Source: Verrucomicrobiota bacterium (lineage in GTDB: Bacteria; Verrucomicrobiota; Verrucomicrobiia; Chthoniobacterales; Terrimicrobiaceae). Taken from it: DNA of 64,000 nt. The translations under genes were made by a program, and so were the position numbers. The notes below the pieces were generated by a model that saw only the letters and a list, made by a program, of their open reading frames with translations, did no database searches and was not told the DNA's origin. Positions 4,453 through 53,637 of this stretch are shown one piece after another; within the stretch, counting starts at the first letter, position 1; every line of letters begins with the position of its first letter. The DNA lies in the NCBI GenBank assembly GCA_026398255.1, contig JAPLTG010000032.1, forward strand, positions 1 to 64,000. Direction: 5' to 3'.

Positions 4453-6738
4453 GTGAAAATCAAAAATCCTGAATTCCGAATCCTCACGATCGCTGCAGCG
4501 GTCGCTTTCTCCATGCTCCCCGTCCAATCCGCTCCGCTCGAATCGGGACGGAGCAAGGCCACATTTGAACTCCCCTTGCTCCAATCCGGCGATGGCCGAC
4601 TCGAGGGCGTTCTGGCCGAGCGGGAGTTTTCCTTCCGCCTGCCCGAGCATGTTCAACTCGATCCGGGCAGCGAGATGGTTCTGGGCTTCCGCTCCTCGCC
4701 GCTCCTCCTCGATGTCTCGACATTTACTGTCACCATCAATGAGCGCCAAATCGTCAGCGCCCGGCTTGGACACGAGCCAAAGGGAGAGGAGAAACAAACT
4801 GAAAACTCCCTCGTCGTTCCGATCCCCGAGGGAGTGCTCCAAGCGGGCTGGAATCGACTCACCGTTCGCTGCCTTCTGCAAACCACCCAAACCCTCTGCC
4901 GCGATGTGGACAATCCCGCGGCTTGGATGGAATTCGGGCCGGAGTCAGTCGTTCGGGTGGCCTACACCAATTTGCCGCTCTTCACGGAAATCCAGCGTTT
5001 CCCAGACTCGATCACCGAGCCCGTCCTCATGCAACTCCCGGAGTTCCGCTCCCCCGCTAAAAAAACCAAGGCCGCACCCGTTGTCTCACTTTTGCTGCCG
5101 GAGGAGTCGGGGGACCCGGAACTCCGGTCCTTCCTCATCGCCGCGGCCCGGCTTGGGCAGACGGTTTACACCCCGCCAGAGGCCGTCTCTGTCGGTGACA
5201 TTGGCGAATTTTCGGAAGTCTGCGAGAGCCGCAACGGAGTGCTGATCGGCACGCGCGACCAGTTGGCGGAGCAACCTCTGCCGGGTCATATCAAGAAAGC
5301 CCTCTCGGAACTCCAGCCGGGGCAGGGATTCCTCGCCGAGTTGATCTACGGCCCGCCGGAAACCACCCAGCGCCGCTGGATCATTCTGAGTGGTGCCGAT
5401 GGCGCCGGATTGGAAAAGGCCGCCCTGACACTCGGCAGTGCCGTCGCCCTGCGGAGTGTGCCATCGAATCCCTGGATCATCGCCAAGGAGCCGGAGATCT
5501 CGCCGTTGGTGGAAAAAATCTCCCAGCCCGAGGTGGGGCCGCTGAAGCTCTCCTCGCTGGAAAATGGCGAAATCCTCCTGCGCGGAATCTTCCGGAATAG
5601 CACCTCGCGCCGAATCTCGTTTCCGCCAGGTTTTGAAACAACCGGCGCGGGTTATGTGGATTTCGATTTCACCCACGCCGATCAGCTCGAGAGAGCCTCC
5701 GCGTTCGATGCGCGCTTGAACGATGCGGTTCTGGGCAGCGTGGCACTCGCTCCCAATAATTCGGGTCGGGTCAAACAGCGTCTCTCGATCCCGGCTGGAA
5801 TCGTTGGCCGAGACCCTTCCTTGATGACGGTATCGAGCTATCTGGACATCGGAAGCGTGGATTGCGCCCACCGAAACGCGGAGCGGGCCTGGTTGAATAT
5901 CTCGGGCGAGACCGTGGTGGACCTCCGCACGACTCCCTTGAAGATCGACGACCTTTCGCGCTTGAACCTGCTCTGCCTGCGGGATGCCTTCCTTCGGCGA
6001 GCCGCTCTGCTGGTGCCCGAGGATTCGGATTCCACTCGCAACGATCTGATCAAAACGATCGGCATGCACCTGGGGTCTCGCCTGCCGGACATGCCGGTTC
6101 TTTGGCCACAAGTCGCGACCTTTGGCCCCGAAATTCCTCCCGAGCCGCATCGCGTCGAAAAACGCTCCGGCTTGGTGCTGGGGTCCGCCTTTCAGTGGCC
6201 CGAAGCTTTCGGAGAAAACAGCCGACTCATCGTTCAGGGTGGGGGAATCAACCGCGACGAAATAATCCTTCGCGGGGAGAAAGTGCCGGTCACTGATTTC
6301 GATCCCAATCTCAGCTTTGTGCAACTCGTGGCCTCGCCATGGACCGATGGGGAGTTTTTTGCCGCGATCGGGGGACTCGAGAACTACGGCGGCAACGCCA
6401 CGATCGCCCTCATCAACAATCCCGGGATTTTCGAGCAGCTGCGAGGCACCATCTCGGCGCTGGATGGCGACTCGCGCCTTCTCACCTACGATGTGAGGTC
6501 GGTCCACGAGGTTTCGCTTTCGGATAAGATGCGCTTGGCGTTTTCCCCTATCCGGCGCGTGGAGGATTTGGAGGCCAAAGAGATCAAGATTACCGAGGCG
6601 GGCTTGGCAGCCACGGCCTTGAATATCGGCATTGGCACGGGCGCCATGGCGCTTCTGGCGAGTTTGTTTCTCATTCAGCGGTTCGTCGTTCGTCGCCGCC
6701 ACAAAAATCATTCCGTCGAGAAGGGAGACGAACTGTGA
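4453..6738 (+). CDS. BcsB-like periplasmic subunit of an exopolysaccharide synthase
   Basis: A 761-residue exported protein that resembles BcsB, the periplasmic membrane-anchored partner of cellulose synthase. It has an N-terminal signal sequence (ILTIAAAVAFSMLPVQSA), a large carbohydrate-binding-like region, and a single C-terminal membrane helix (ALNIGIGTGAMALLASLF) followed by a basic tail. The BcsB-like segment GWNRLTVRCLL...CRDVDNPAAWMEFGPES lies near residues 135-175. No BcsA is adjacent; the glycosyltransferase of this operon is NfrB-like, so this subunit probably receives that glycan rather than cellulose. The GTG start lacks a clear ribosome binding site. The stop overlaps the next start by four bases (GTGA). 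Confidence 0.82.
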   Translation: MKIKNPEFRILTIAAAVAFSMLPVQSAPLESGRSKATFELPLLQSGDGRLEGVLAEREFSFRLPEHVQLDPGSEMVLGFRSSPLLLDVSTFTVTINERQIVSARLGHEPKGEEKQTENSLVVPIPEGVLQAGWNRLTVRCLLQTTQTLCRDVDNPAAWMEFGPESVVRVAYTNLPLFTEIQRFPDSITEPVLMQLPEFRSPAKKTKAAPVVSLLLPEESGDPELRSFLIAAARLGQTVYTPPEAVSVGDIGEFSEVCESRNGVLIGTRDQLAEQPLPGHIKKALSELQPGQGFLAELIYGPPETTQRRWIILSGADGAGLEKAALTLGSAVALRSVPSNPWIIAKEPEISPLVEKISQPEVGPLKLSSLENGEILLRGIFRNSTSRRISFPPGFETTGAGYVDFDFTHADQLERASAFDARLNDAVLGSVALAPNNSGRVKQRLSIPAGIVGRDPSLMTVSSYLDIGSVDCAHRNAERAWLNISGETVVDLRTTPLKIDDLSRLNLLCLRDAFLRRAALLVPEDSDSTRNDLIKTIGMHLGSRLPDMPVLWPQVATFGPEIPPEPHRVEKRSGLVLGSAFQWPEAFGENSRLIVQGGGINRDEIILRGEKVPVTDFDPNLSFVQLVASPWTDGEFFAAIGGLENYGGNATIALINNPGIFEQLRGTISALDGDSRLLTYDVRSVHEVSLSDKMRLAFSPIRRVEDLEAKEIKITEAGLAATALNIGIGTGAMALLASLFLIQRFVVRRRHKNHSVEKGDEL

Positions 6739-7967
6739 GGCTTGCCGCGTTGTTTCTAGGTTTTGCGTTAGCGGGAACGGCCTTGGCTGGCGGGAGCACC
6801 CTGCTGATCTACGATTCGCCTTCCAAACCGTTCTCGTTGCAGAACGAGATCGAGCCGATTGCGATCCTGCTGGCGCGCTTTGACCCCGCCATCGAACGCC
6901 GCATGGGGAGTGAAGTTCGTCTGGCGGACATGGAAAAAGCCTCCCGCATCGTGGTGGCTGGCATTGGAGGGTTTCCCGCCATGTCGGCCCCGTGCCTTGA
7001 GTATCTCGAGAAAACCAAAAAACCACTCGTGGGCATCGGAGCGGCGGCGACCCTGGCCATTCCAGATTCACCGCGTCCATCCAAGCCGTCCGAGTCGTTG
7101 CCCAAGGGACAACTCGTTTACCTCGGCAGGGAATGGCCCGCCCAGGTCGATCCGTATTTTCCGGCGGCCGTCGATTCCTCGCTGATCCTTGCTCGAATTC
7201 ATGGGGCGGATGGTGAAAAGGCGATTTGCTGGAGGTCTGGCAATCGTCTGGGATTTGCCGCGCTTCCTACGGCGCCTCCGCTCTCGATGGTTTTCTCGGA
7301 TGCGGTGATGGACCTCTTCTCCCCGGGAGTCAGCACCGCGCCGGGGATTCTTTTCATCGTTCGGGACTTCAATCCCTCGTGCTCGCCCGATTCCTTTCGG
7401 AGGTTGGTGGATTATTTTTCCCACGACCGAATTCCCTTCGCGGTGACGGCGCAGATGCGAGACCTCCCCGAGGGAACCACCCCCATGCCACGTGAGGAAT
7501 TTCTCGCGGCGCTCCGATATGCCGAATCGCACGGCGGAAGGATTTTCGTCCGGGGAGGCGAGGGGCTCAAGGAGGCCGAGAAATTCGCTCCCGTGAAGCC
7601 CTGTGGAATCGAGGAACCCGACCAACCGGACACGACGGCCATTCAAATTGGGCGCCCGACATTTGCCCGAACGCCGGATGATCCAATCAGTCCGTTTTTC
7701 ATCCATGCCCCGATGCGTCTCGCGGGCGGGGGGTGGTTGTGGCCGGCCAATGTGCGCGGGGGATTGGATGGGAACCTTGTCTCCTCCATCCGCACGCAAG
7801 TCCGGGACATCATTCCATTCCGTGGAGCTGTCGCGGGTGTCGTGATCCCGGCCTGGCTTCCCTTCCAATCCATGCGCGCCCTAGCCGATGCCGCCCGATC
7901 CTTTGGCATCGCCCCCATCGACCCTCTCACCGCAGTTCCTGAACCCCTTTCGCAACATCATCCATGA
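6735..7967 (+). CDS. DUF2334-type (polysaccharide deacetylase-like) secreted protein
   Basis: A 410-residue protein with a signal peptide (RLAALFLGFALAGTALAG) and a GTG start overlapping the upstream stop. The middle part, ILFIVRDFNPSCSPDSFRRL then VDYFSHDRIPFAVTAQMRDL, matches the DUF2334 pattern. In that family a metal-dependent deacetylase-like fold carries an Asp in place of the usual deacetylase motif. The first 170 residues resemble a Rossmann-like regulatory half. Embedded between BcsB-like and NfrA-like genes, it may modify the exported glycan, for example by removing N-acetyl groups; this is inference. Catalytic residues cannot be confirmed by eye. Confidence 0.65.
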   Translation: MRLAALFLGFALAGTALAGGSTLLIYDSPSKPFSLQNEIEPIAILLARFDPAIERRMGSEVRLADMEKASRIVVAGIGGFPAMSAPCLEYLEKTKKPLVGIGAAATLAIPDSPRPSKPSESLPKGQLVYLGREWPAQVDPYFPAAVDSSLILARIHGADGEKAICWRSGNRLGFAALPTAPPLSMVFSDAVMDLFSPGVSTAPGILFIVRDFNPSCSPDSFRRLVDYFSHDRIPFAVTAQMRDLPEGTTPMPREEFLAALRYAESHGGRIFVRGGEGLKEAEKFAPVKPCGIEEPDQPDTTAIQIGRPTFARTPDDPISPFFIHAPMRLAGGGWLWPANVRGGLDGNLVSSIRTQVRDIIPFRGAVAGVVIPAWLPFQSMRALADAARSFGIAPIDPLTAVPEPLSQHHP

Positions 7968-9559
7968 AATTCTTCCTTCCCTGTATTCTGGCTGCCGCCA
8001 GCCTTCACGCCCAACCGCTCGAGCTTCTCGAGCAGGCCAACATTCTCTCCAACGAGGGATCGCACGCCGCCGCCGCGGATCTTCTCAAGCAAGCCAGCTC
8101 AGCCGATCCCGGCAATGAGGCGTTATCATTCCGATTGGCGAGTGCCTTGGTTTTCAGTCGCCGCCACACCGAGGCGAGGGTCCTTTTGGATCGTCTCTCG
8201 AAATCCTGGAATCCAGAAATGGCCGCGATGGCCGCATCGAGCCTGACGGCCCTGGATCGGGCCGAAGAGGTGGAGCGCGCCGCCAAGGCAAAACCTCCCA
8301 GCGCCGCGCAGTTGCAGGCCCAGCGGGACTATCTCGAAAGGAAAGCCCGGATGGACCGCCGGCAGACTGTTTATGATCTCCTCGCCAGCGGAGAAGATTC
8401 AAAAGCTCTGACTGCGATCGAGTCTTTGGAGCGGAAAAACGAGGCGACGCCCGATTTGTTGCAGGAAAAAGCGGGGATCCTTGGGCGGATGGGGCGCACC
8501 AGCGAGGCCCTCGCGATTTTGAGTCGATTGGCGGAGTCCGGAAATTCCTCCAAGGAAACCCAACTCCAACTCGCCTCCCTGCTCATGAAGGAGGGAAAGA
8601 CTCGGGAGGCATTTCAAATTTGGAGCGGCCTCCGCGAGCAATACGGTGATGCCCCGGAGGGCCGGCAAGCAGCAATGGAGATCGACGCCCTGGCGGCTCC
8701 CTACAATCTCGATCGCTGGTCGTGGGGGGAACTCGATCTCTACGCGAGCTATCTCCAGCGGTTCAATATCGGGGTGGCCAATGGACGCCTTCGCCAAGGA
8801 ACTTTTGTGCCCGGAGCACGGTGGATCGAGCCCTTCGTGCAGGCGGATTTCAGTTTGGACTCCGATCCCTACGGCAACGGAGCCGAGGGATTATCGACGA
8901 TCTACAACGAAAACCTCGCAGGCTTCCACGCCGGCGCGAGGATTCGGCCATTCGCCACGCAGTCGTTCACCCTTTATGCGCTGGGTGGAATTCAAAAAGA
9001 CCTTCGAGGAACCGAGCAACATCGGGGGCAGTGGTTTTGGGAACTCATCACGGGTGTCAATGGATTCTGGGCGTGGGGCCCCGGAAAGGAATGGGCATTT
9101 TCCGACCTGCAAGCCATCGCGCCGGGAGGTCTTCCGGTGATTCCCCAATCCGTCGCCAACTGGATGCCAAATACCTGGAGTCCAGCCCAACTGAGGTGGG
9201 ATTGGTTTGTGGAGGCTGGAGGCGACGCGGCCTACTACACCCGGCTTGCCGACTGCATTGCCTACGGGCAATCGCGGCAAGGAATCCGCTTCGCGCAGTT
9301 CGGCAAGGCGGCGGCTCTTGATGCGTATGCTTTCGAAAACCTGACGATGGATACCGAGGGAAACTACTACGACAATTACTTCGAGGCCGGCCCGGGAATG
9401 CGCTTCGTCACCTCGCCGGTCGGCGCGGCGGTCTTTACCACCAGCGTCGAATATGTCGTCGGCAGTTATCTGGGCAGGAATGAGGGGGACACGCGAGGTG
9501 ACCTCGACACCGCCTACTCGGATTTCCGAATCACCGCCTCGCTATCCCTTCGCTGGTAA
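7964..9559 (+). CDS. NfrA-like outer-membrane TPR/beta-barrel protein
   Basis: A 531-residue protein with a signal peptide (KFFLPCILAAASLHA), about 230 residues of tetratricopeptide helices (repeated A-A-L-L and alternating E-A patterns up to about residue 240), then a C-terminal part rich in aromatic residues and beta strands. It ends in ASLSLRW, a terminal aromatic typical of barrel proteins. This order (TPR then barrel) is that of NfrA, the outer-membrane glycan exporter that N4 phage uses for adsorption, and of PgaA. The next gene is NfrB-like, which supports the call. E. coli NfrA is considerably longer. It starts in an ATGA overlap with the preceding gene. Confidence 0.78.
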   Translation: MKFFLPCILAAASLHAQPLELLEQANILSNEGSHAAAADLLKQASSADPGNEALSFRLASALVFSRRHTEARVLLDRLSKSWNPEMAAMAASSLTALDRAEEVERAAKAKPPSAAQLQAQRDYLERKARMDRRQTVYDLLASGEDSKALTAIESLERKNEATPDLLQEKAGILGRMGRTSEALAILSRLAESGNSSKETQLQLASLLMKEGKTREAFQIWSGLREQYGDAPEGRQAAMEIDALAAPYNLDRWSWGELDLYASYLQRFNIGVANGRLRQGTFVPGARWIEPFVQADFSLDSDPYGNGAEGLSTIYNENLAGFHAGARIRPFATQSFTLYALGGIQKDLRGTEQHRGQWFWELITGVNGFWAWGPGKEWAFSDLQAIAPGGLPVIPQSVANWMPNTWSPAQLRWDWFVEAGGDAAYYTRLADCIAYGQSRQGIRFAQFGKAAALDAYAFENLTMDTEGNYYDNYFEAGPGMRFVTSPVGAAVFTTSVEYVVGSYLGRNEGDTRGDLDTAYSDFRITASLSLRW

Positions 9560-9566
9560 TCACGCC

Positions 9567-12092
9567 ATGGACATCCTCAATTCACTCTTTCTCATGATGG
9601 CCTACACGGCCGCCGTTGGTTTTTTCCTTTTTGGAATCGACGATTTATTTTTCGACCTTCAAATCCTCCGACGGTTGCGAGGCCGACGCGGAGAGCCACC
9701 GGTGCCGATCGAAACCCTCCGCAATGAACCGGAAAAACTCATCGCGATCTTCATTCCAGCATGGAACGAAGGGGGAATCGTCAACCGCATGGCGGACTAT
9801 GCGAGGAAGACGCTCCTCTATGAGAACTACGATCTTTTCATCGGCGTCTATGCCAATGATCCGGAAACCAACCGGTGCGTCGATGAGTTGGTGAAAATCT
9901 CCCCGCGTGTGCACAAAGCGGTCGTGCCACACGCCGGGCCGACCTCGAAGGCGGATTGCCTGAACTATATTTTCAACACCATGCGGGCCTGCGAAATCCC
10001 GGGCCGGCGCGAATACGCGATCATCGCCCTCCACGACGCCGAGGACATCCTGCATCCGCTCACGCTGAAGGTTTACAATCACTATGTCCCCGAGATTTTG
10101 GACATGGGGCAAATTCCTGTTTTCCCCCTCGAGCTGCCTCCGTTGACGAATTGGGTTGGCAATACCTACCTCGATGAGTTTGCGGAGCTGCATGTGAAGG
10201 ACATGTATGCCCGCGAAGCAATCGGTGGTGTCGTTCCCTCGGCAGGCGTCGGGACAGCCTTTTCACGCAAATCGCTCGATCAGCTCGCGGAGGAGAATAA
10301 CGGCGTGCCATTTCCTGATGGAAGTCTGGCGGAGGATTACTTTGTGGGAATGAAACTCGCGGCGATGGGTTTTCGGACGGGTTTCATTGAAAATCCGGTC
10401 GAGAGACAAGTGGTGCGTCGCGACGCGAAGGGCCGTGAGATTTCCCGAAAAAACATCACGGAACGCGTCGCAGTGAGGGAAAATTTTCCCAGACGCTTCT
10501 TTCAGGCTGTTCGGCAAAAAGCCCGCTGGATTATTGGCACGGCGTTTCAAAGCTGGGAGCATCAAGGATGGAAGGGGGGGCTCGCTGCGAAATACACCCT
10601 CGTTCGTGATCGCCGGGCGCCAGTCGTCCACACCATCAACGCCGCCGGATACTGCGCGGTGGCCTACATGATCGCGGATATCGGAATCCGCCACACGGTG
10701 TTGGCCAATTCGTTTTATCTGCCGCCACTCTTCGAAGCGAACGGCCTTCTTTGGAAGCTCGTTCTTGTGGACACCGCCCTGCTTTGCTACCGGGTCGGGC
10801 AGAAGGTCTACCATGTCACCGATGTTTATGGATGGAAGCAGGGCATCTTTTCGATCCCGCGCTATCCGGTGGTGAATTTCATCAACATGGGAGCCACCTT
10901 CTGGGCCATCGTCGTCTACTCGCGCCACCGCCTCCTTGGAAAACCCCTGGCTTGGGCCAAGACGACACACACTTTCCCAGGAAGTGCGGAACTGGGGGAA
11001 TTTAACCGCTCCGTGGAAGATCTGCTGATCGACGAAGGCTATGTCCTTCGCAACGACCTGGAGAACATTCTGGTAAAAAACAGGGATCGCTCCGCACCGC
11101 GGGCGCTACTCGAGATGGGGCTGATCGATGAGGGGCAATTCTGCGATATTTGGTCCAAACATTCCGGCCTCGATGTCGGCGATGTCGATGTCGCCATCAT
11201 CGACCTGAGTCTCCTCGATTCGTGGCCTGAAAAAAAGGCCCTTCGCCACGAGGCCATGCCCCTGCAGCGCCGTGATGATGGACGCACGGTCTTCGCCTTT
11301 GCGGAGCCTCCCACCGAGCGGGATTTGAATCGCGTGGTGGAAACGGCAGGAACCCCGGTGGAACCAGTCCTGACCGCGCCGACTCAAATCACAAATCTTC
11401 GCAACCACGCCTATCCGCGACGGATTTTGAAGCCGCGTGCATTTCCCCTCCTGCTGCCCGAGTCTCCCACCGCCCTAGTCAATGCCGCTCCGAGCATTTC
11501 GATCATTCGCGCTCTTGGGCCGTTCTTTTGCGAACTTCATGGGCTGCTGCCAATGCTCGATGGCTCAATCGCCGCGCGCTCTCCCGTTCATCCCGGCATT
11601 GCGGCCAGGATGCACAAGATTCTTGGCACGGAAGCGCCTCTTGTTTCCGATAAAACACGGGGTTTTCAAACAGCATGGCGCAAATTTGAGCGCCTCCGAA
11701 TGCCTCATTCCTCGCTTTTGCAGGAACTCGCCGAGGCCGAGATTCTCACCAAGGAAAACACCGAGCGTATCCAAAATATGGCCCGCCTCGTCAGCACGCC
11801 GATGGATCGCATGCTCGTCCAACTCGGCCTCGCAAACCGCAAACAAGTTTACAACGCCCTGCGTCGTTGCGGCGGCGTGGATGTCGCCGCGGATCATGAC
11901 CATCAGGTCGCTCGGGGTTGTGAGGACCTTCTGGCTCCGGGATTCAGCGCCAAGACCGGAGTCGTCGTCCACCATCTCGATGGAGACGGCTTGGTCATGC
12001 GTCTGAGCGGCATGCTGTCCCCTAGCGAACTGCGGGAAATCTTCGATCGCTGCGAGGGTTGGCCCCTCCGCTTTGAACTTCTCGCCCCCTGA
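9567..12092 (+). CDS. NfrB-like glycosyltransferase with C-terminal c-di-GMP-binding MshEN-type region
   Basis: An 841-residue inner-membrane enzyme starting MDILNSLFLMMAYTAAVGFF. The GT2 domain contains FIPAWNEGG, the DxD-like HDAED, the acceptor acidic pair in AEDYFVGMKL and the processivity motif QKARW. Several membrane helices follow (near residues 350-480). The last 330 residues contain two segments resembling MshEN c-di-GMP modules (ALLEMGLIDEGQFCDIWSKH and RMLVQLGLANRKQVYNALRR). In E. coli NfrB, c-di-GMP binding at the MshEN domain activates polymerisation of a ManNAc-containing glycan. The start at 9567 is eight bases past the previous stop; an in-frame ATG at 9453 would overlap NfrA and is rejected. 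Confidence 0.88.
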   Translation: MDILNSLFLMMAYTAAVGFFLFGIDDLFFDLQILRRLRGRRGEPPVPIETLRNEPEKLIAIFIPAWNEGGIVNRMADYARKTLLYENYDLFIGVYANDPETNRCVDELVKISPRVHKAVVPHAGPTSKADCLNYIFNTMRACEIPGRREYAIIALHDAEDILHPLTLKVYNHYVPEILDMGQIPVFPLELPPLTNWVGNTYLDEFAELHVKDMYAREAIGGVVPSAGVGTAFSRKSLDQLAEENNGVPFPDGSLAEDYFVGMKLAAMGFRTGFIENPVERQVVRRDAKGREISRKNITERVAVRENFPRRFFQAVRQKARWIIGTAFQSWEHQGWKGGLAAKYTLVRDRRAPVVHTINAAGYCAVAYMIADIGIRHTVLANSFYLPPLFEANGLLWKLVLVDTALLCYRVGQKVYHVTDVYGWKQGIFSIPRYPVVNFINMGATFWAIVVYSRHRLLGKPLAWAKTTHTFPGSAELGEFNRSVEDLLIDEGYVLRNDLENILVKNRDRSAPRALLEMGLIDEGQFCDIWSKHSGLDVGDVDVAIIDLSLLDSWPEKKALRHEAMPLQRRDDGRTVFAFAEPPTERDLNRVVETAGTPVEPVLTAPTQITNLRNHAYPRRILKPRAFPLLLPESPTALVNAAPSISIIRALGPFFCELHGLLPMLDGSIAARSPVHPGIAARMHKILGTEAPLVSDKTRGFQTAWRKFERLRMPHSSLLQELAEAEILTKENTERIQNMARLVSTPMDRMLVQLGLANRKQVYNALRRCGGVDVAADHDHQVARGCEDLLAPGFSAKTGVVVHHLDGDGLVMRLSGMLSPSELREIFDRCEGWPLRFELLAP

Positions 12093-12101
12093 TTTCTTAT
12101 T

Positions 12102-13268
12102 ATGAAAAAAACGATCGCCGTCATTGTCGGAACCCGTCCGGAAGCCATCAAGCTCGCTCCCGTGATCCGTGCCCTCGGTTTTTCCGACCACCTGCAACCC
12201 ATCACCATTTCGACCTCCCAGCACGGCGAGATGGTGGAGCAAATCTTCGAGAATTTCGGCATCACGGCCGATGTGGATCTTCAAGTCATGCGTCCACGCC
12301 AGAAGCTCTGGGACCTTACCGCGATCCTATCCACAGAACTCGGCGCGTATTTTTCCGATCATCCCGTGGATGCCGTGCTCGTCCAAGGCGACACGACCTC
12401 TGCTCTCATCGGGGGGCTCTCCGCTTTCTACCACAAAATTCCAGTCGGCCATGTCGAGGCCGGCCTGCGCTCGCATGATCGCTACTCGCCATTTCCCGAG
12501 GAATTAAATCGCACCCTCCTCACCCGCATCGCGCAATGGCACTTCGCTCCGACCCCCTACGCCGCGGATTTGCTTCGAAGCGAGAACATCGACAACGCCA
12601 CGATTTATATCACCGGCAATACCGTCGTGGACGCCCTGCATTGGATGTCTCGGCACCTTCGCCACAGCGAAATTCGTCCCGGCATTCTGAATGGGCAGCG
12701 AAAACTCGTCCTCGTCACTTGCCATCGCCGCGAAAACATCGGACTCCCCATGCGATCCGTCGCTCTCGCCATCAAGCACCTCGCCGACTCGCATCCCGAG
12801 GCCCACTTTCTTTTTCCCATGCACCCGAACCCCGGAGTCCGCGAGTTGATCCAGCCCATTCTTTCCAAGCAAAACGGCGTCACGCTTTGCGAGCCTCTGA
12901 ACTACGAGGAATTCCTCTCCGCCTTGCACCAATCCTATTTTGTGATCTCCGACTCTGGCGGGGTCCAAGAAGAAGCCACCGCCCTCGGCAAGCCCGTCCT
13001 CGTCCTGCGCCGCGAAACCGAGCGACCCGAAGGCGTCGAGGCCGGCACGCTTCGTCTCGTCGGAACCGATGTCCAAGAAATCCTCCGCGCGGGCCACGAG
13101 CTTTTGGTGAACCCCGAAAGCCACGGAGCGATGTCCAACGGATCCGGAGTTTTCGGAGACGGAAAAGCCGCTCAAAAAATCCAAAAAATCCTCGAGCAAA
13201 ACCTCAGCACCGCCAACCGCATCCTGCCCTTCAAGAAACCGACAGGTGAACTGGTTCTGATGGAGTAG
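12102..13268 (+). CDS. wecB: UDP-N-acetylglucosamine 2-epimerase (non-hydrolysing)
   Basis: A 388-residue cytoplasmic enzyme converting UDP-GlcNAc to UDP-ManNAc. Family motifs are GTRPEAIKLAPVI at the start, QGDTTSAL, GHVEAGLRSHDR, the RRENIG segment, and the C-terminal SDSGGVQEEATALGKPVLVLR that binds the nucleotide. It begins ten bases after the NfrB-like gene in the same operon. E. coli WecB supplies UDP-ManNAc to NfrB, so this gene closes the logic of the locus: substrate synthesis, polymerisation, and periplasmic and outer-membrane transport. Confidence 0.95.
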   Translation: MKKTIAVIVGTRPEAIKLAPVIRALGFSDHLQPITISTSQHGEMVEQIFENFGITADVDLQVMRPRQKLWDLTAILSTELGAYFSDHPVDAVLVQGDTTSALIGGLSAFYHKIPVGHVEAGLRSHDRYSPFPEELNRTLLTRIAQWHFAPTPYAADLLRSENIDNATIYITGNTVVDALHWMSRHLRHSEIRPGILNGQRKLVLVTCHRRENIGLPMRSVALAIKHLADSHPEAHFLFPMHPNPGVRELIQPILSKQNGVTLCEPLNYEEFLSALHQSYFVISDSGGVQEEATALGKPVLVLRRETERPEGVEAGTLRLVGTDVQEILRAGHELLVNPESHGAMSNGSGVFGDGKAAQKIQKILEQNLSTANRILPFKKPTGELVLME

Positions 13269-13274
13269 CGGAGA

Positions 13275-13670
13275 ATGGCGGAAGGGGCGGCGAGCGGCCT
13301 TTGGAGCGGAAGGATGCAGTGGCTCAATGTCCGCGCACTATTTCAGGTTGGGGGAGCATCTTTTTTTGGAATGGGAGAGCCGAGGGCCCAACCCTTCGGA
13401 TTGGCCGATGATGGTTTTCGGACTGGCCAGTTTCGGGGATCATCGCCCGGCGCGAGGATCGAGTTCAACGATGCATATGTCGGGACGACACCCTGCCGGA
13501 TTCGCGTGCCGGGAGGGGTAGGCAGAAAATTCAGCTCCGGCAAAATCCTCGGTCATGATTTTAAAGCCTTCCCACTGCCGTCGGGCGGCTCGACACAGAT
13601 CCAGCGGTTCGATGCAGGCAGCGATATTCCCGAGCACCTCTTCTTCGATATGAGGCTTTCTTACCGATGA
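13275..13670 (+). CDS. PEGA-like ORF, probably a 5'-truncated remnant
   Basis: A 131-codon frame whose first ATG lies inside the candidate attL repeat. The central part (PGARIEFNDAYVGTTPCRIRV) fits the PEGA pattern, a small beta domain found in secreted lipoproteins that often ends in GTTP. The later part (IPEHLFFDMRL) looks like a genuine protein. The first 60 residues have no signal peptide and read poorly, so I think the original N terminus was lost at the integration junction. It may be untranslated. Its stop overlaps the next small ORF (ATGA). Confidence 0.4.
   Translation: MAEGAASGLWSGRMQWLNVRALFQVGGASFFGMGEPRAQPFGLADDGFRTGQFRGSSPGARIEFNDAYVGTTPCRIRVPGGVGRKFSSGKILGHDFKAFPLPSGGSTQIQRFDAGSDIPEHLFFDMRLSYR
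13276..13290. repeat. Direct repeat of the tRNA-Ser 3' end (candidate attL)
   Basis: The 15 bases TGGCGGAAGGGGCGG are identical to 15882-15896, which are the encoded CCA, discriminator, acceptor strand and first T-arm bases of tRNA-Ser(CGA) read on the minus strand. The copy lies eight bases after the wecB stop. A duplicated tRNA 3' end in direct orientation is the normal footprint of site-specific integration by a tyrosine recombinase. Confidence 0.75.
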
Positions 13671-13795
13671 AGAACTTCTTTCGAATCACAATGGCAGGGT
13701 TCATCGCTCTGCTGGGCGCCAACCTCGCATGCCTTGCCCAGGAGAGTGGAGAAATCCACGAAGTCGAAGTTGTAGGGGAGGAGACTGATTCATAA
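13667..13795 (+). CDS. Short secreted peptide or truncated gene, 42 aa
   Basis: The frame starts with an ATG that overlaps the preceding stop and encodes MKNFFRITMAGFIALLGANL followed by ACLAQ, a clear signal peptide with a cleavage site after Ala. Only about 17 acidic residues follow (ESGEIHEVEVVGEETDS) before TAA. It is either a very small exported peptide or the 5' stub of a longer secreted protein lost during decay of the island. No ribosome binding site stands out beyond translational coupling. Confidence 0.4.
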   Translation: MKNFFRITMAGFIALLGANLACLAQESGEIHEVEVVGEETDS

Positions 13796-13803
13796 ATCTC
13801 AAA

Positions 13804-13858
13804 AATATAACTCGAAAAAATAGCTTTTCATGAGTTATATTGCATGGCTTTTTAACTC
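13804..13858. promoter_or_regulatory. Probable operator/promoter of the Fic gene
   Basis: AATATAACTC (13804-13813) and GAGTTATATT (13832-13841) form a perfect ten-base inverted repeat with an 18-base spacer. A third half-site, TTTAACTC, lies at 13851-13858 and abuts the ATG. TATATT at 13836-13841 could be a -10 box lying within the right arm, so a bound protein would block RNA polymerase. The patch is clearly AT-richer than its surroundings. The Fic protein has a C-terminal winged helix, so autoregulation is plausible. Confidence 0.5.
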
Positions 13859-14977
13859 ATGGAGACTTTGAAACGCTGGAATTGGCAGCAGGACGACTGG
13901 CCGCATTTTCGTTTTGATGCGAACCGGTTGGCTGCACTGGAGGAGAAATTCTTGAGGGCGGCGGGCGTTTTTTTTGGGAGTTTCAAGCACTTGGCCAATG
14001 AATCCAGGGCGCCGCTGGAGGTGGAACTCCTGAGCGAGGAGGCGGTGAAATCCTCGGAGATCGAAGGGGAAATGCTCAATCGCGACAGCGTGGTCTCCTC
14101 GATCCGGCGACAGTTCGGCTTGGCCACGGATCATCGCCGGGTTCCCCCTGCCGAGTTGGGGATTTCACAATTGATGGCGGAACTCCACCGGGAGTTTGAG
14201 GCCCCGGTGGATGAGGCGCGGCTTGCGCATTGGCACTCGCTGCTGATGAATGGCCGAAGCGACTTGGAAAAGATCGCTGGTTACCGACTGGAAGGTGATC
14301 CGATGCAAGTGGTTTCGGGTTCGCTCCACGATCCAAAAGTGCATTTCGAGGCGCCGTCCTGCTCGGCGGTGCCTTCTGAAATGTCCCAATTTCTGGACTG
14401 GTATGCGAGAACGGGCCCGAACGGACCTGATGGTCTACCAATCCTCACGAGGGCAGGTCTTTGCCATCTTTATTTTGTGAGCATTCATCCTTTTGAAGAC
14501 GGCAACGGACGTCTTGCGAGGGCATTGGCGGAAAAATGCCTTGCAGAGGGTCTCGGGCATCCGGTGCTGATTGCTCTTTCGGCAACGATTCATCGTGGTC
14601 GCAAAACCTACTATGAAATGCTTGAGCGGGCCAACAAGCGGAACGAGGTTACGGAGTGGTTGTTGTATTTCGCGGAAGCCATTCTTGCTGCACAAGCCGA
14701 AGCGCAAACTTGGGTTGAATTCTTGATCGAAAAGACAAAGCTCTTCGACCGGTTGCGTGGTCTTTTGAACAAGAGGCAGGAAAAAGTCCTCCTCCGCATG
14801 ACCCGCGAAGGCCCCGCTGGGTTCCAAGGTGGTCTGAGTGCGGAGAATTATTTGGCAATCACGGGCGCCTCTCGGGCTACGGCAACCCGAGACCTGCAAG
14901 AATTGGTGGAAATGGGGGCCCTTGTTCGCAGTGGGCGCCTGAAGGGCACTCGATACCGATTGGCCTTTTTAATCTAG
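13859..14977 (+). CDS. Fic-family protein with DUF4172 N terminus and winged-helix C terminus
   Basis: A 372-residue protein. The N-terminal 80 residues (RWNWQQDDWPHFRFDANRL) match DUF4172. The Fic core has the catalytic motif HPFEDGNGRLAR near residue 218, so AMP or another nucleotide phosphate could be transferred to a target hydroxyl. An inhibitory-helix motif of the S/T-xxx-E-G/N type is present upstream (SSEIEG), so the enzyme is likely self-inhibited. The C terminus (YLAITGASRATATRDLQEL) is a winged helix-turn-helix. It sits alone within the tRNA-bounded island and has no visible ribosome binding site, so translation may be leaderless. Confidence 0.9.
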   Translation: METLKRWNWQQDDWPHFRFDANRLAALEEKFLRAAGVFFGSFKHLANESRAPLEVELLSEEAVKSSEIEGEMLNRDSVVSSIRRQFGLATDHRRVPPAELGISQLMAELHREFEAPVDEARLAHWHSLLMNGRSDLEKIAGYRLEGDPMQVVSGSLHDPKVHFEAPSCSAVPSEMSQFLDWYARTGPNGPDGLPILTRAGLCHLYFVSIHPFEDGNGRLARALAEKCLAEGLGHPVLIALSATIHRGRKTYYEMLERANKRNEVTEWLLYFAEAILAAQAEAQTWVEFLIEKTKLFDRLRGLLNKRQEKVLLRMTREGPAGFQGGLSAENYLAITGASRATATRDLQELVEMGALVRSGRLKGTRYRLAFLI

Positions 14978-15367
14978 CGCGCGTGTCTCGCTTGCGGTCT
15001 TAAATTGCTCAAAGTCAGGATCTAAGGCCGCACTAGTGTGCCCGGCATGGGCATGAACAAGTCAGAAACAAAATAAAATCGAAAATGACCGGAAGCAGTG
15101 ACAGCAACCGTAGCGAAAGCCAAGGCGGGTTCCGCGTGGGACTCAGCACGAAAGAAGGCCGTAGCAAAGGGAACGACCGTAGGAACACGAACAGGCAGAG
15201 AGGCTGGATGCGGGCGATGAGCGTGCTAGCAGCCTATCGGGGTTTGATTATTTGAAATCTCAGGATTCCCATTTCTGGAATTTTGAAAATTTGGTTTTCG
15301 GGTCTCGCGGTTTCTATTTCGGGGCGTTTGGCTTGGTTTGGGTCAATGAGGCTGGAAATTTCCTGCT
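14978..15367. other. Non-coding spacer; possible 5' fragment of a group II intron
   Basis: No convincing ORF is present. From 15036 the sequence begins GTGTGCCCGGCATGGGCATG, similar to the conserved GUGYG 5' boundary and following bases of many bacterial group II introns. It continues with structured-looking purine-rich sequence (CCGTAGCGAAAGCC at about 15107-15120) to about 15235. No reverse transcriptase ORF and no domain V/VI can be seen, so at most a truncated domain I remains. From 15240 to 15367 the sequence is AT-rich and probably belongs to the end of the neighbouring insertion sequence. Confidence 0.3.
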
Positions 15368-15838
15368 TTATGCCGCTTGGAGCTTGGCTCCGAGGATGTG
15401 GAGGCGCTTGAGGTTGTAGGCCAGACAGACCAGATTCCATTCCGTGCTCGCTTTGGCGTGCCCTCGCATTGAGAAGCGCCGGAATTTCATCGCTTCTTTG
15501 ATGATTCCGAAGACGGGTTCGACCGTTTGCTGCCGCAATTTGTAGAGTGCTCGTCCGGCGGCGGTGGTGGTGCGGTGTTTCATCCTGGTAGCGAAATCGG
15601 CATAGGCTCCGGGCGGTTCGGGGTCGGGTTGCTATTCGAGTTGCTTGATTGTGCGACCGTGAGGTTGGCGCTCCATCGCGGTCAGGACTTGGAGGCCGGG
15701 GTTTTCGGCTTCGATCTTTTCGATGACGGCTTCGCTGACACAGCCGCTGTCGACAAGCACAGCAGCGGGTTCGGCGTTTTCCTTCACGACTTTCAAATCC
15801 TCGGCCAGCTCCTGCTTGTCGTTCGGAGATTGGCTCAC
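15368..15838 (-). pseudogene. Broken IS1182-type transposase
   Basis: Two minus-strand fragments lie in the same frame and are separated by a single TAG at 15632-15634. The first reads EAVIEKIEAENPGLQVLTAMER and the second reads KLRQQTVEPVFGIIKEAMKF then STEWNLVCLAYNLKRLHIL. The second is the conserved DDE C terminus of IS1182-like transposases, with the catalytic Glu in TVEPVFG. The N-terminal two thirds of the transposase are missing: frame similarity stops near 15850, just before the tRNA. The gene is therefore both truncated and interrupted by a stop. Confidence 0.75.
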
Positions 15839-15881
15839 GCGCTGGCGCCTTGGGATGGAAAAATCTCCGTGAAACGGAAAT

Positions 15882-15896
15882 TGGCGGAAGGGGCGG
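15882..15896. repeat. Candidate attR inside the tRNA-Ser 3' end
   Basis: Fifteen bases identical and in the same orientation as 13276-13290. Integration at tRNA 3' ends preserves the tRNA, as here, and leaves the duplicate at the far end of the element. Confidence 0.7.
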
Positions 15897-15971
15897 GATT
15901 CGAACCCGCGGTAGCTTGCGCTACGTTCGATTTCGAGTCGAGTGCCTTAAACCGGACTCAGCCACCCTTCC
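15882..15971 (-). tRNA. tRNA-Ser (anticodon CGA)
   Basis: Read on the minus strand, the gene begins GGAAGGGTGGC. Its acceptor stem GGAAGGG pairs with CCCTTCC, and the T arm GCGGG-TTCGAAT-CCCGC is perfect. The long variable arm (GTAGC-GCAA-GCTAC) marks class II. The anticodon loop CTCGAAA gives CGA, which reads UCG serine codons. The discriminator is G and CCA is encoded (15882-15884). The top pair of the anticodon stem is a C-A mismatch. The 3' end is duplicated at 13276-13290, so this gene is the integration target of the adjacent island. Confidence 0.95.
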
Positions 15972-16055: not shown

Positions 16056-16850
16056 CTATTCGCGGGGTTGGCGGGTGACTTCTAGAAAATTGCGGACGCG
16101 TTTGATTTCGGGGAGGGAGATGGTGTTTTGGGCCCAGAGGGTGCTGGAGGATCCGCCGTCGAGGTTCAGGGCCATGGTGGGTTTCCAGGAGCCGAGGATT
16201 TTTGGGAGGGAGAGGATTTCGGCGGTGTCGGCGAGGGTGACGGAGGTCAGGTAGATGAGGGCGGCTTGGTTGGCGGGGCCGGTGGCCACAGCGGTGCGGC
16301 GGGCGATTTTTTCGGCGTTCAAGCCGGAGACGGGGGCGGAATTTTCGATGAGCATCGGGCCGCATTGGATGGCTTCGCGATAGGTGCCGGGATTGGGGTC
16401 GAAACGGGCGGAGCGGAAAATCGACAGGGTGCCTTTGGGGGAGGTGGCGACGATGCCGCTGAGAATTTTCGCTTTTTTGAATTTTTGGCGGGTTTTTCCC
16501 TCCGAAATGACGAGGCCGACGGGGGTGAAATCGGGCTCGAAATACCCACCGTTGACTCCGCCGATCGCTTGGCGGGATTCCAAAAGGCTGGCGAGCCGGG
16601 TTTCGCCGGGTTTCGGGCTATCCACCACGCGGATGGTGTGGGAGCGGGTGTTGAACACGATGGCGACGAGCCGGGCGTGGCCATCCGGGTTTTTCCGCTT
16701 CAACTGGGTTTCCACAACCTCGACGCCGTCGGCGGGGGTTCCGAGGATTTGGGTGGAGAGGATTTCCCAGTTGGCGCGGGCGGTTCCACAGAACGCAAGA
16801 AGGGCGGCAACGAATGCCGCCCTTTTGCTTTTTAGGATGGTTTTCAACAA
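16056..16850 (-). CDS. Secreted phosphodiester glycosidase family protein (NAGPA domain)
   Basis: A 264-residue exported protein with signal peptide SKRAAFVAALLAFCGTARA. The NAGPA-like core has the hallmark motifs GGVNGGYF near residue 97 and ALNLDGGSSSTL near 228, with QCGPMLI between them. Related enzymes cleave GlcNAc-phosphodiester links. In bacteria they are usually periplasmic or extracellular and act on wall or surface glycans; the substrate here is unknown. It begins eight bases after the acs stop in the same direction, so it is probably the second gene of the acs transcript. Confidence 0.85.
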   Translation of the reverse strand: MLKTILKSKRAAFVAALLAFCGTARANWEILSTQILGTPADGVEVVETQLKRKNPDGHARLVAIVFNTRSHTIRVVDSPKPGETRLASLLESRQAIGGVNGGYFEPDFTPVGLVISEGKTRQKFKKAKILSGIVATSPKGTLSIFRSARFDPNPGTYREAIQCGPMLIENSAPVSGLNAEKIARRTAVATGPANQAALIYLTSVTLADTAEILSLPKILGSWKPTMALNLDGGSSSTLWAQNTISLPEIKRVRNFLEVTRQPRE

Positions 16851-16858
16851 GGCCAGGA

Positions 16859-18805
<1,947 letters not shown>

Positions 18806-52714: not shown

Positions 52715-53637
52715 AGCGGCGGAAGGAAAAAACTGACGAGCCCGAGAGGGTTCCATTGGATCGATTGGCGGAGGAGTTTCTTCGCTATTTGGAGGCTGAG
52801 AAAAACGCCTCCCCTCTGACGGTGAAAACCTACCGGATCGCGCTCGAGGCGTTCCGGAAATTCCATCCCGATGGCTCGTGGACGGCGATGAGAGCGGATG
52901 ATTTTCGCGCCTGGATGCTCGAGATGATGAAGGCGGAGATGGCGCGGGCGAGCGTGCGGCTGCGCTTCGCGGCGATGCGGTCTTTTTATGCATTCCTGCA
53001 AATGCGCGGGAAGGTTTTGAAGAATGTCCTCCACGAGGTTTTGCTCCCGAAGCGGGAGAAGACGCTGCCTCGCTTTCTCACCAACTCCCAGGTTGAATCG
53101 CTGGTCGAGGCGCCGCTGAAAGCCGAAAAAAACAAACAGGCCCCCACATGGATGGCGGCCCGCGATACAGCGATCATCGAACTTTTTTACTCCACCGGAA
53201 TGCGACTCGCGGAGTTGGTGGGCTTGGATGTTCCCGATGTGGACCCCATCGGGGAGTCGGCGCGAGTGACTGGCAAGGGAGCGAGGGAGAGGATTTGCCC
53301 GGTGGGAGGTCCTGCACTGGAGGCCATCTCGCGCTATCGGCAGGCTGCTCGGGTGCACGCAGGGCCGCTGTTCATCAACAAATCCCGCCGTCGACTCTCG
53401 ACACGCTCGGTGAATTTTCTACTAAAGCTCCGGCTGGCCCAAGCCGGGTTGCCTGCCGATTTGTCACCCCACAAATTGCGCCATAGTTTCGCGACCCATC
53501 TGCTCGACGCCGGGGCTGATCTCCGGAGTGTGCAAACTTTGCTCGGGCACGCCAGCCTCTCGACCACGCAAATCTACACGCATGTCACAATCGAGCGATT
53601 GAAGGCGGCATACCTAGCCGCGCATCCTCGCGCGTAG
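52711..53637 (+). CDS. xerC: Tyrosine recombinase XerC-type
   Basis: A 308-residue site-specific recombinase of the kind that resolves chromosome dimers at dif. The core-binding domain (EEFLRYLEAEKNASPLTVKT) is followed by the catalytic domain: Arg in YSTGMRLAELVGLD, Lys in TGKGARER, the HKLRHSFATHLL box, and the nucleophile Tyr in TQIYTHVTIERL preceded by LLGHASLSTT. The likely start is the TTG at 52711, which overlaps the DUF4912 stop in a TTGA; no ATG or GTG fits. It is not inside the tRNA-bounded island, so it is probably the housekeeping enzyme. Confidence 0.9.
   Translation: MKRRKEKTDEPERVPLDRLAEEFLRYLEAEKNASPLTVKTYRIALEAFRKFHPDGSWTAMRADDFRAWMLEMMKAEMARASVRLRFAAMRSFYAFLQMRGKVLKNVLHEVLLPKREKTLPRFLTNSQVESLVEAPLKAEKNKQAPTWMAARDTAIIELFYSTGMRLAELVGLDVPDVDPIGESARVTGKGARERICPVGGPALEAISRYRQAARVHAGPLFINKSRRRLSTRSVNFLLKLRLAQAGLPADLSPHKLRHSFATHLLDAGADLRSVQTLLGHASLSTTQIYTHVTIERLKAAYLAAHPRA

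Follow-up and report, generated by a model that had tools for sequence, protein, structure and literature searches.

We identified an exact 15-base copy of the 3' end of a tRNA-Ser(CGA) gene beside wecB, 2.6 kb from the tRNA itself, in the 64,000-nucleotide stretch of DNA analysed here (the window). With a probability of about one half, this copy is the displaced 3' fragment (attR) of a mobile element that was once integrated at the T-stem/acceptor junction of tRNA-Ser(CGA). The interval between the two copies is probably the decayed footprint of an ordinary tRNA-Ser-targeting element, later used as a site of insertion and rearrangement, and is nothing new in kind. We infer that a mobile element would have integrated at the T-stem/acceptor-stem junction, rebuilding the tRNA at its other end and leaving the tail copy beside wecB; the integrase end would then have been deleted, possibly via an insertion sequence (IS) on the tRNA side, and the gap would later have been filled and eroded in further events that brought in a truncated IS1182-family insertion, a Fic gene with its operator, a dispersed repeat and a piece also present in another species. 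The locus shows that a tRNA-tail repeat may be secure on statistical grounds without the account of a single decayed island being so, and it identifies tRNA-Ser(CGA) as a phage attachment site and rearrangement point in a little-studied genus of Verrucomicrobiota.

Table 1. Features of the interval and its flanks, in window coordinates.
Feature	Position	Strand	Basis or remark
wecB, UDP-GlcNAc 2-epimerase, last conserved gene of left-flank operon	12102..13268	+	TIGR00236, 419 bits
Distal 15-nt copy of tRNA-Ser(CGA) 3' end, putative attR remnant	13276..13290	-	Exact repeat; minus-strand letters CCGCCCCTTCCGCCA
Dispersed DNA repeat found in the genus, truncated here	13328..13441	+	84-98% identical to stretches in G007, G009, G010 and G011
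346-bp fragment: C-terminal half of PEGA lipoprotein gene and initial 44 codons of the gene for a 490-aa secreted protein	13444..13789	+	94.5% DNA identity to G009 contig C122
Fic promoter with putative operator: TATAxCTC and TGAGxTATA half-sites, and TAACTCATG at the start codon	13787..13858	+	Half-sites kept in five species
Intact Fic protein, 372 aa	13859..14977	+	Pfam PF13776, 2e-28; PF02661, 1.6e-14
Stretch called intron-like in the earlier note	14978..15225		248 nt
IS1182-family insertion sequence, 3' remnant of 620 bp	15226..15846	-	76-77% DNA identity to 1575-bp elements in G011 and G010; NF033551
Probable tRNA terminator, CCG-TTTCA-CGG hairpin followed by a T run	15847..15881	-	Sequence
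tRNA-Ser(CGA), encoded CCA, integration target	15882..15971	-	ARAGORN; Rfam RF00005
Right flank: NAGPA-domain gene and acs, conserved pair	16056..18805	-	Not linked to tRNA-Ser or wecB in congeners

The repeat of the tRNA end

The sequence TGGCGGAAGGGGCGG stands exactly at 13276-13290 and 15882-15896 on the same strand, in agreement with an earlier note on this DNA, which had reported a 15-bp duplicate of the tRNA end eight bases after wecB. The repeat takes in the final four T-stem bases, the 3' strand of the acceptor stem, the discriminator and CCA, and thus starts within the T-stem, as for an attachment site at the T-stem/acceptor junction. The left copy begins 8 bases past the wecB stop codon, on the downstream side of the tRNA 3' end; it shares the orientation of the tRNA and ends at CCA, and a downstream position in the same orientation is the sole geometry possible for a 3' attachment fragment. 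With its flanks included, the repeat matches at 20 of 22 positions (13269-13290 versus 15875-15896), and the left copy diverges completely after 15 nt, so that nothing of the remaining tRNA was found beyond 13290. Terminator-like hairpins such as that of the window were also identified 3' of tRNA-Ser(CGA) in three congeners (G001, G004 and G008).

Markov models of order 1-5 put the number of copies expected by chance at about 1e-5 for that strand of the interval and at 0.02-0.04 for the genome, which bears out the earlier judgement that a coincidental match was unlikely. The 2.6-Mb assembly of the organism contains only two exact copies, both at this locus, and two with one mismatch (a reversed 15-mer, searched as a control, gave one match, with one mismatch). 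Across 16 congeneric genomes we found 12 exact copies, compared to one for the reversed control. Nine of the 12 belong to tRNA-Ser(CGA) genes, of which one is truncated where its contig ends, and the other three are the left copy of the window, a phage attP and a tandem copy of the tRNA tail. Except for this tandem copy, in G008, no tail match of 12 nt or more adjoined the other tRNA-Ser(CGA) genes that were read.

The left copy could be a chance match in the G-rich sequence after wecB, given that the motif itself is G-rich and that rare coincidences are selected when many windows are read. The expectations above (about 0.03 genome-wide), and the finding that no exact copy among the 16 genomes falls outside a tRNA-Ser derivation, except possibly the left copy of the window, make this very improbable. 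We treat the repeat as non-random and derived from tRNA-Ser(CGA) but, in view of the many windows read, leave 10% for coincidence.

The arrangement is that of Islander-type tDNA islands of the junction sublocation, with an intact tRNA at one end, a same-orientation 3' fragment that reaches the tRNA end and falls outside any conserved domain at the other, accessory content in between, and a length of 2.6 kb that fits the 2-200 kb range of such islands. It differs from them in having no integrase inside, no known empty attB in congeners and an interior composed of a patchwork of broken pieces. Junction-type sites are one of the two main integration classes in Islander (PMC4383910), and the fragment length fits such sites, which we count in favour of the attachment-site reading; the left copy would fit a junction-type integrase.

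Composition of the interval

The interval is made up of pieces with sharp joints and separate origins (Table 1). Each piece has its own joints, and therefore nothing ties the pieces to one element; the earlier proposal of a single integrative element reduced to a core with its Fic gene is not sustained, as the Fic unit also occurs at unrelated loci elsewhere. The content is nonetheless accessory, as had been proposed, and in part horizontally acquired, one piece of it being 94.5% identical to G009. The GC content of the interval (54.8%) lies within the lowest 3-4% of 2.6-kb stretches in the window. No PF00589 match was found in the interval, and none of the PF00589 matches of the genome falls there, consistent with the earlier statement that no integrase is left.

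The left repeat copy is separated by 37 nt from the dispersed repeat, which (core CCCAACCCTTCGGATTGGCCGATGATGGTTTTCGGATTGGCCAGTTT) was also observed in several congeners (L221, L222, L223, L224 and L225), lying near hipBA-like genes in two. The 346-bp fragment starts two nt after the dispersed repeat, and both of its genes are broken here and complete in G009 contig C122. The two genomes are far apart (NAGPA 54% identical), and because of its high identity against this background the fragment must have moved between species. The 131-aa open reading frame at 13275-13670, which had been taken for a PEGA-like fragment, is a chance fusion reading across the dispersed repeat and the PEGA fragment, although half of a PEGA lipoprotein gene is indeed present; as this frame is an artefact, the left repeat copy does not lie within a conserved coding domain. 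Similarly, the signal-peptide stub of the earlier note exists, not as a separate piece but as the start of the next gene in the PEGA operon. A phage origin of the PEGA fragment was rejected, the similarity being at the domain level only and equally near to a chromosomal copy in G005, with no viral relative found by scan.

The Fic gene is, as first described, the intact gene of the interval. Its product contains DUF4172, the Fic motif HPFEDGNGR (consensus HPFx(D/E)GNGRxxR; HPFEDGNGRLAR), an N-terminal SSEIEG inhibitory motif and a winged-helix-like C-terminal end. The closest solved chain, PDB 8cil, belongs to the same protein family along most of its length and also has the Fic motif, whereas copies 71-74% identical to the window Fic were found only within the genus. 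These copies, in four congeners, sit at unrelated loci and share only the promoter of about 70 bp with the surroundings of the window gene; Fic plus operator is a separately moving unit. The TATAxCTC and TGAGxTATA half-sites before the gene are invariant in five species, suggesting autoregulation, and together with TAACTCATG they form a probable autoregulatory operator of three half-sites (13787-13861). The protein itself is probably a self-inhibited AMP-transferase controlling its own promoter, the motif reading and the autoregulation both drawing on established Fic knowledge and on inference.

For the supposed intron-like fragment, we found neither an Rfam match at E<=5 nor a relative among the loci searched, and a group II intron was rejected for lack of an Rfam match. 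The IS remnant was correctly recognised, and was assigned to the IS1182 family by its transposase C-terminus and its terminal CTAGCAGCC end; intact elements of the family are present in G011 and G010. About 955 bp of its 5' part are missing on the tRNA side, and its frame contains an in-frame TAG. The missing half was absent from the rest of the genome, including the reciprocal breakpoint, and plasmids gave only partial matches to the element (68-71%).

Synteny of the flanks

The left flank is an operon (4453-13268) that is kept in congeners and ends with wecB. The earlier note had predicted that sister genomes would hold a single-copy empty site with wecB beside tRNA-Ser, which we could not find: wecB adjoins tRNA-Ser(CGA) in none of the congeners where both were found, and no empty attB with contiguous flanks was identified, within synteny evidence that is limited by the fragmentation of many congener assemblies. 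The next gene after wecB encodes a receiver-domain protein in eight congener loci, and three other genes follow it in G003; the PEGA reading frame was considered as the conserved gene after wecB and rejected, being unrelated to this protein. In congeners, tRNA-Ser(CGA) neighbours a Leu-binding-type ABC gene (c3), a glyoxalase-like gene (c5, gloA-like) or mdh, with a variable 3' side. NAGPA-acs forms a third separate block in congeners, with no tRNA-Ser nearby; among GTDB contigs we found one NAGPA relative, 50% identical (L182) and likewise without a tRNA nearby.

In the genome of the window, c3, mdh and c5 lie on contig C42 at 198.6-201.7 kb, without the tRNA and about 183 kb from it, and adjoin relatives of the three post-wecB genes of G003. 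Because the usual tRNA neighbours lie elsewhere in the same genome, and the wecB neighbours differ, the wecB-tRNA and tRNA-NAGPA junctions are both new in the window lineage, requiring at least three breakpoints. A simple two-break inversion was rejected, as it would turn the 5' end of the tRNA, not its 3' end, towards wecB.

These junctions raise the possibility that the interval is breakpoint debris from a multi-break move of tRNA-Ser(CGA) beside NAGPA-acs and wecB, perhaps IS-assisted, with the tail copy as a by-product of repair. The displaced c3/gloA-like/mdh neighbours and their attachment to the G003 post-wecB genes, the novelty of both tRNA flanks and the truncation of the IS on its tRNA side point in this direction. 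A simple rearrangement, however, makes no same-orientation copy ending exactly at CCA, and the missing IS half occurs nowhere else in the genome; we consider this explanation doubtful. A mobile element using the tRNA-Ser(CGA) attachment site might also have taken the entire tRNA gene along, as cargo or by dragging it, over about 183 kb to wecB. The 15-nt copy would then mark a relocated tRNA rather than insertion into a resident tRNA gene, which we regard as highly unlikely. For integration at a resident tRNA, the absence of wecB-tRNA adjacency in relatives means that an extra, earlier rearrangement is needed, and the synteny result, which lends integration no support, is compatible with integration following such a rearrangement.

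Tail copies and phage attachment sites at tRNA-Ser(CGA)

Copies of tRNA tails downstream of a tRNA are also known from RtT repeats (Rfam RF00391), described from the E. coli tyrT operon (PMC4986893). In G008 contig C258 (L101:21-145), tRNA-Ser(CGA) is followed by a 142-bp structured unit ending in a 19-nt tail copy, which matches Rfam RtT over its full length (25 bits, E 0.006 when searched alone, against a gathering score of 45), and a degenerate unit follows tRNA-Ser(CGA) in G001 contig C74 (L099:776-880; 19.5 bits). The hairpins of the two units appear to covary, and G008 additionally has a duplicated terminator. Tail copies downstream of tRNA-Ser(CGA) can thus arise without an evident integrase, and the presence of RtT-like repeats in Verrucomicrobiota would notably extend their range.

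The left copy of the window might accordingly be a relic of tandem post-tRNA units, each ending in a tail copy as in tyrT, that were later split by insertions. The units of G008 and G001 lend this some support, but the G008 score is below the gathering score, the window copy is 15 nt and not 19 and lies 2.6 kb away, and no RtT body precedes it (no match in 13240-13480), making such an origin unlikely.

The attachment-site reading has its counterpart in the use of tRNA-Ser(CGA), by sequence, as an integration target in the genus. In the close congener G003, contig C47 repeats the 3' part of the tRNA-Ser(CGA) of that genome from the anticodon arm to CCA; this copy forms an attP core with CGGACAACA-type repeats on both sides, and a tyrosine integrase follows within about 100 nt. 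Six IMG/VR viral contigs have the same layout, with the integrase frame at a nearly equal distance. In this family the core is about 57 nt, with CGGACAACA-type arm repeats on both sides, and the integrase lies at about +98 to +1147; its DNA had no relative in the GenBank phage set. These verrucomicrobial temperate phages share with the window the target tRNA gene and the genus, but the interval is without the core, the arm repeats and the nearby integrase. The left copy has only the final 15 of the roughly 57 nt of the anticodon-arm-to-CCA core, and is therefore not a preserved site of this phage family. Genes of the interval showed no homology to the family beyond a weak PEGA-domain match (33%).

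Members of the temperate phage family with a tRNA-Ser(CGA) attP were observed at loci L184, L186, L188, L189, L190, L191 and L179. In G013, contigs C61 (L106:1-29) and C45 (end of L107) both end within tRNA-Ser(CGA), possibly because of a repeat or because integrated and empty sites coexist in the population. A related integrase (47% identical) was found in the genome of the window on the 38.9-kb contig C38 (L229:3290-4566), behind a core that has GGGCAACA repeats to either side and resembles the 3' half of a different tRNA, probably tRNA-Leu(CAA). As this attP is apparently uncut, C38 may represent a phage of the window species that is extrachromosomal or was assembled separately. Finally, the window contains a strong Phage_integrase match (135.7 bits) at 53074-53592 on the plus strand, within a 445-aa open frame about 11 kb from tRNA-Cys(GCA).
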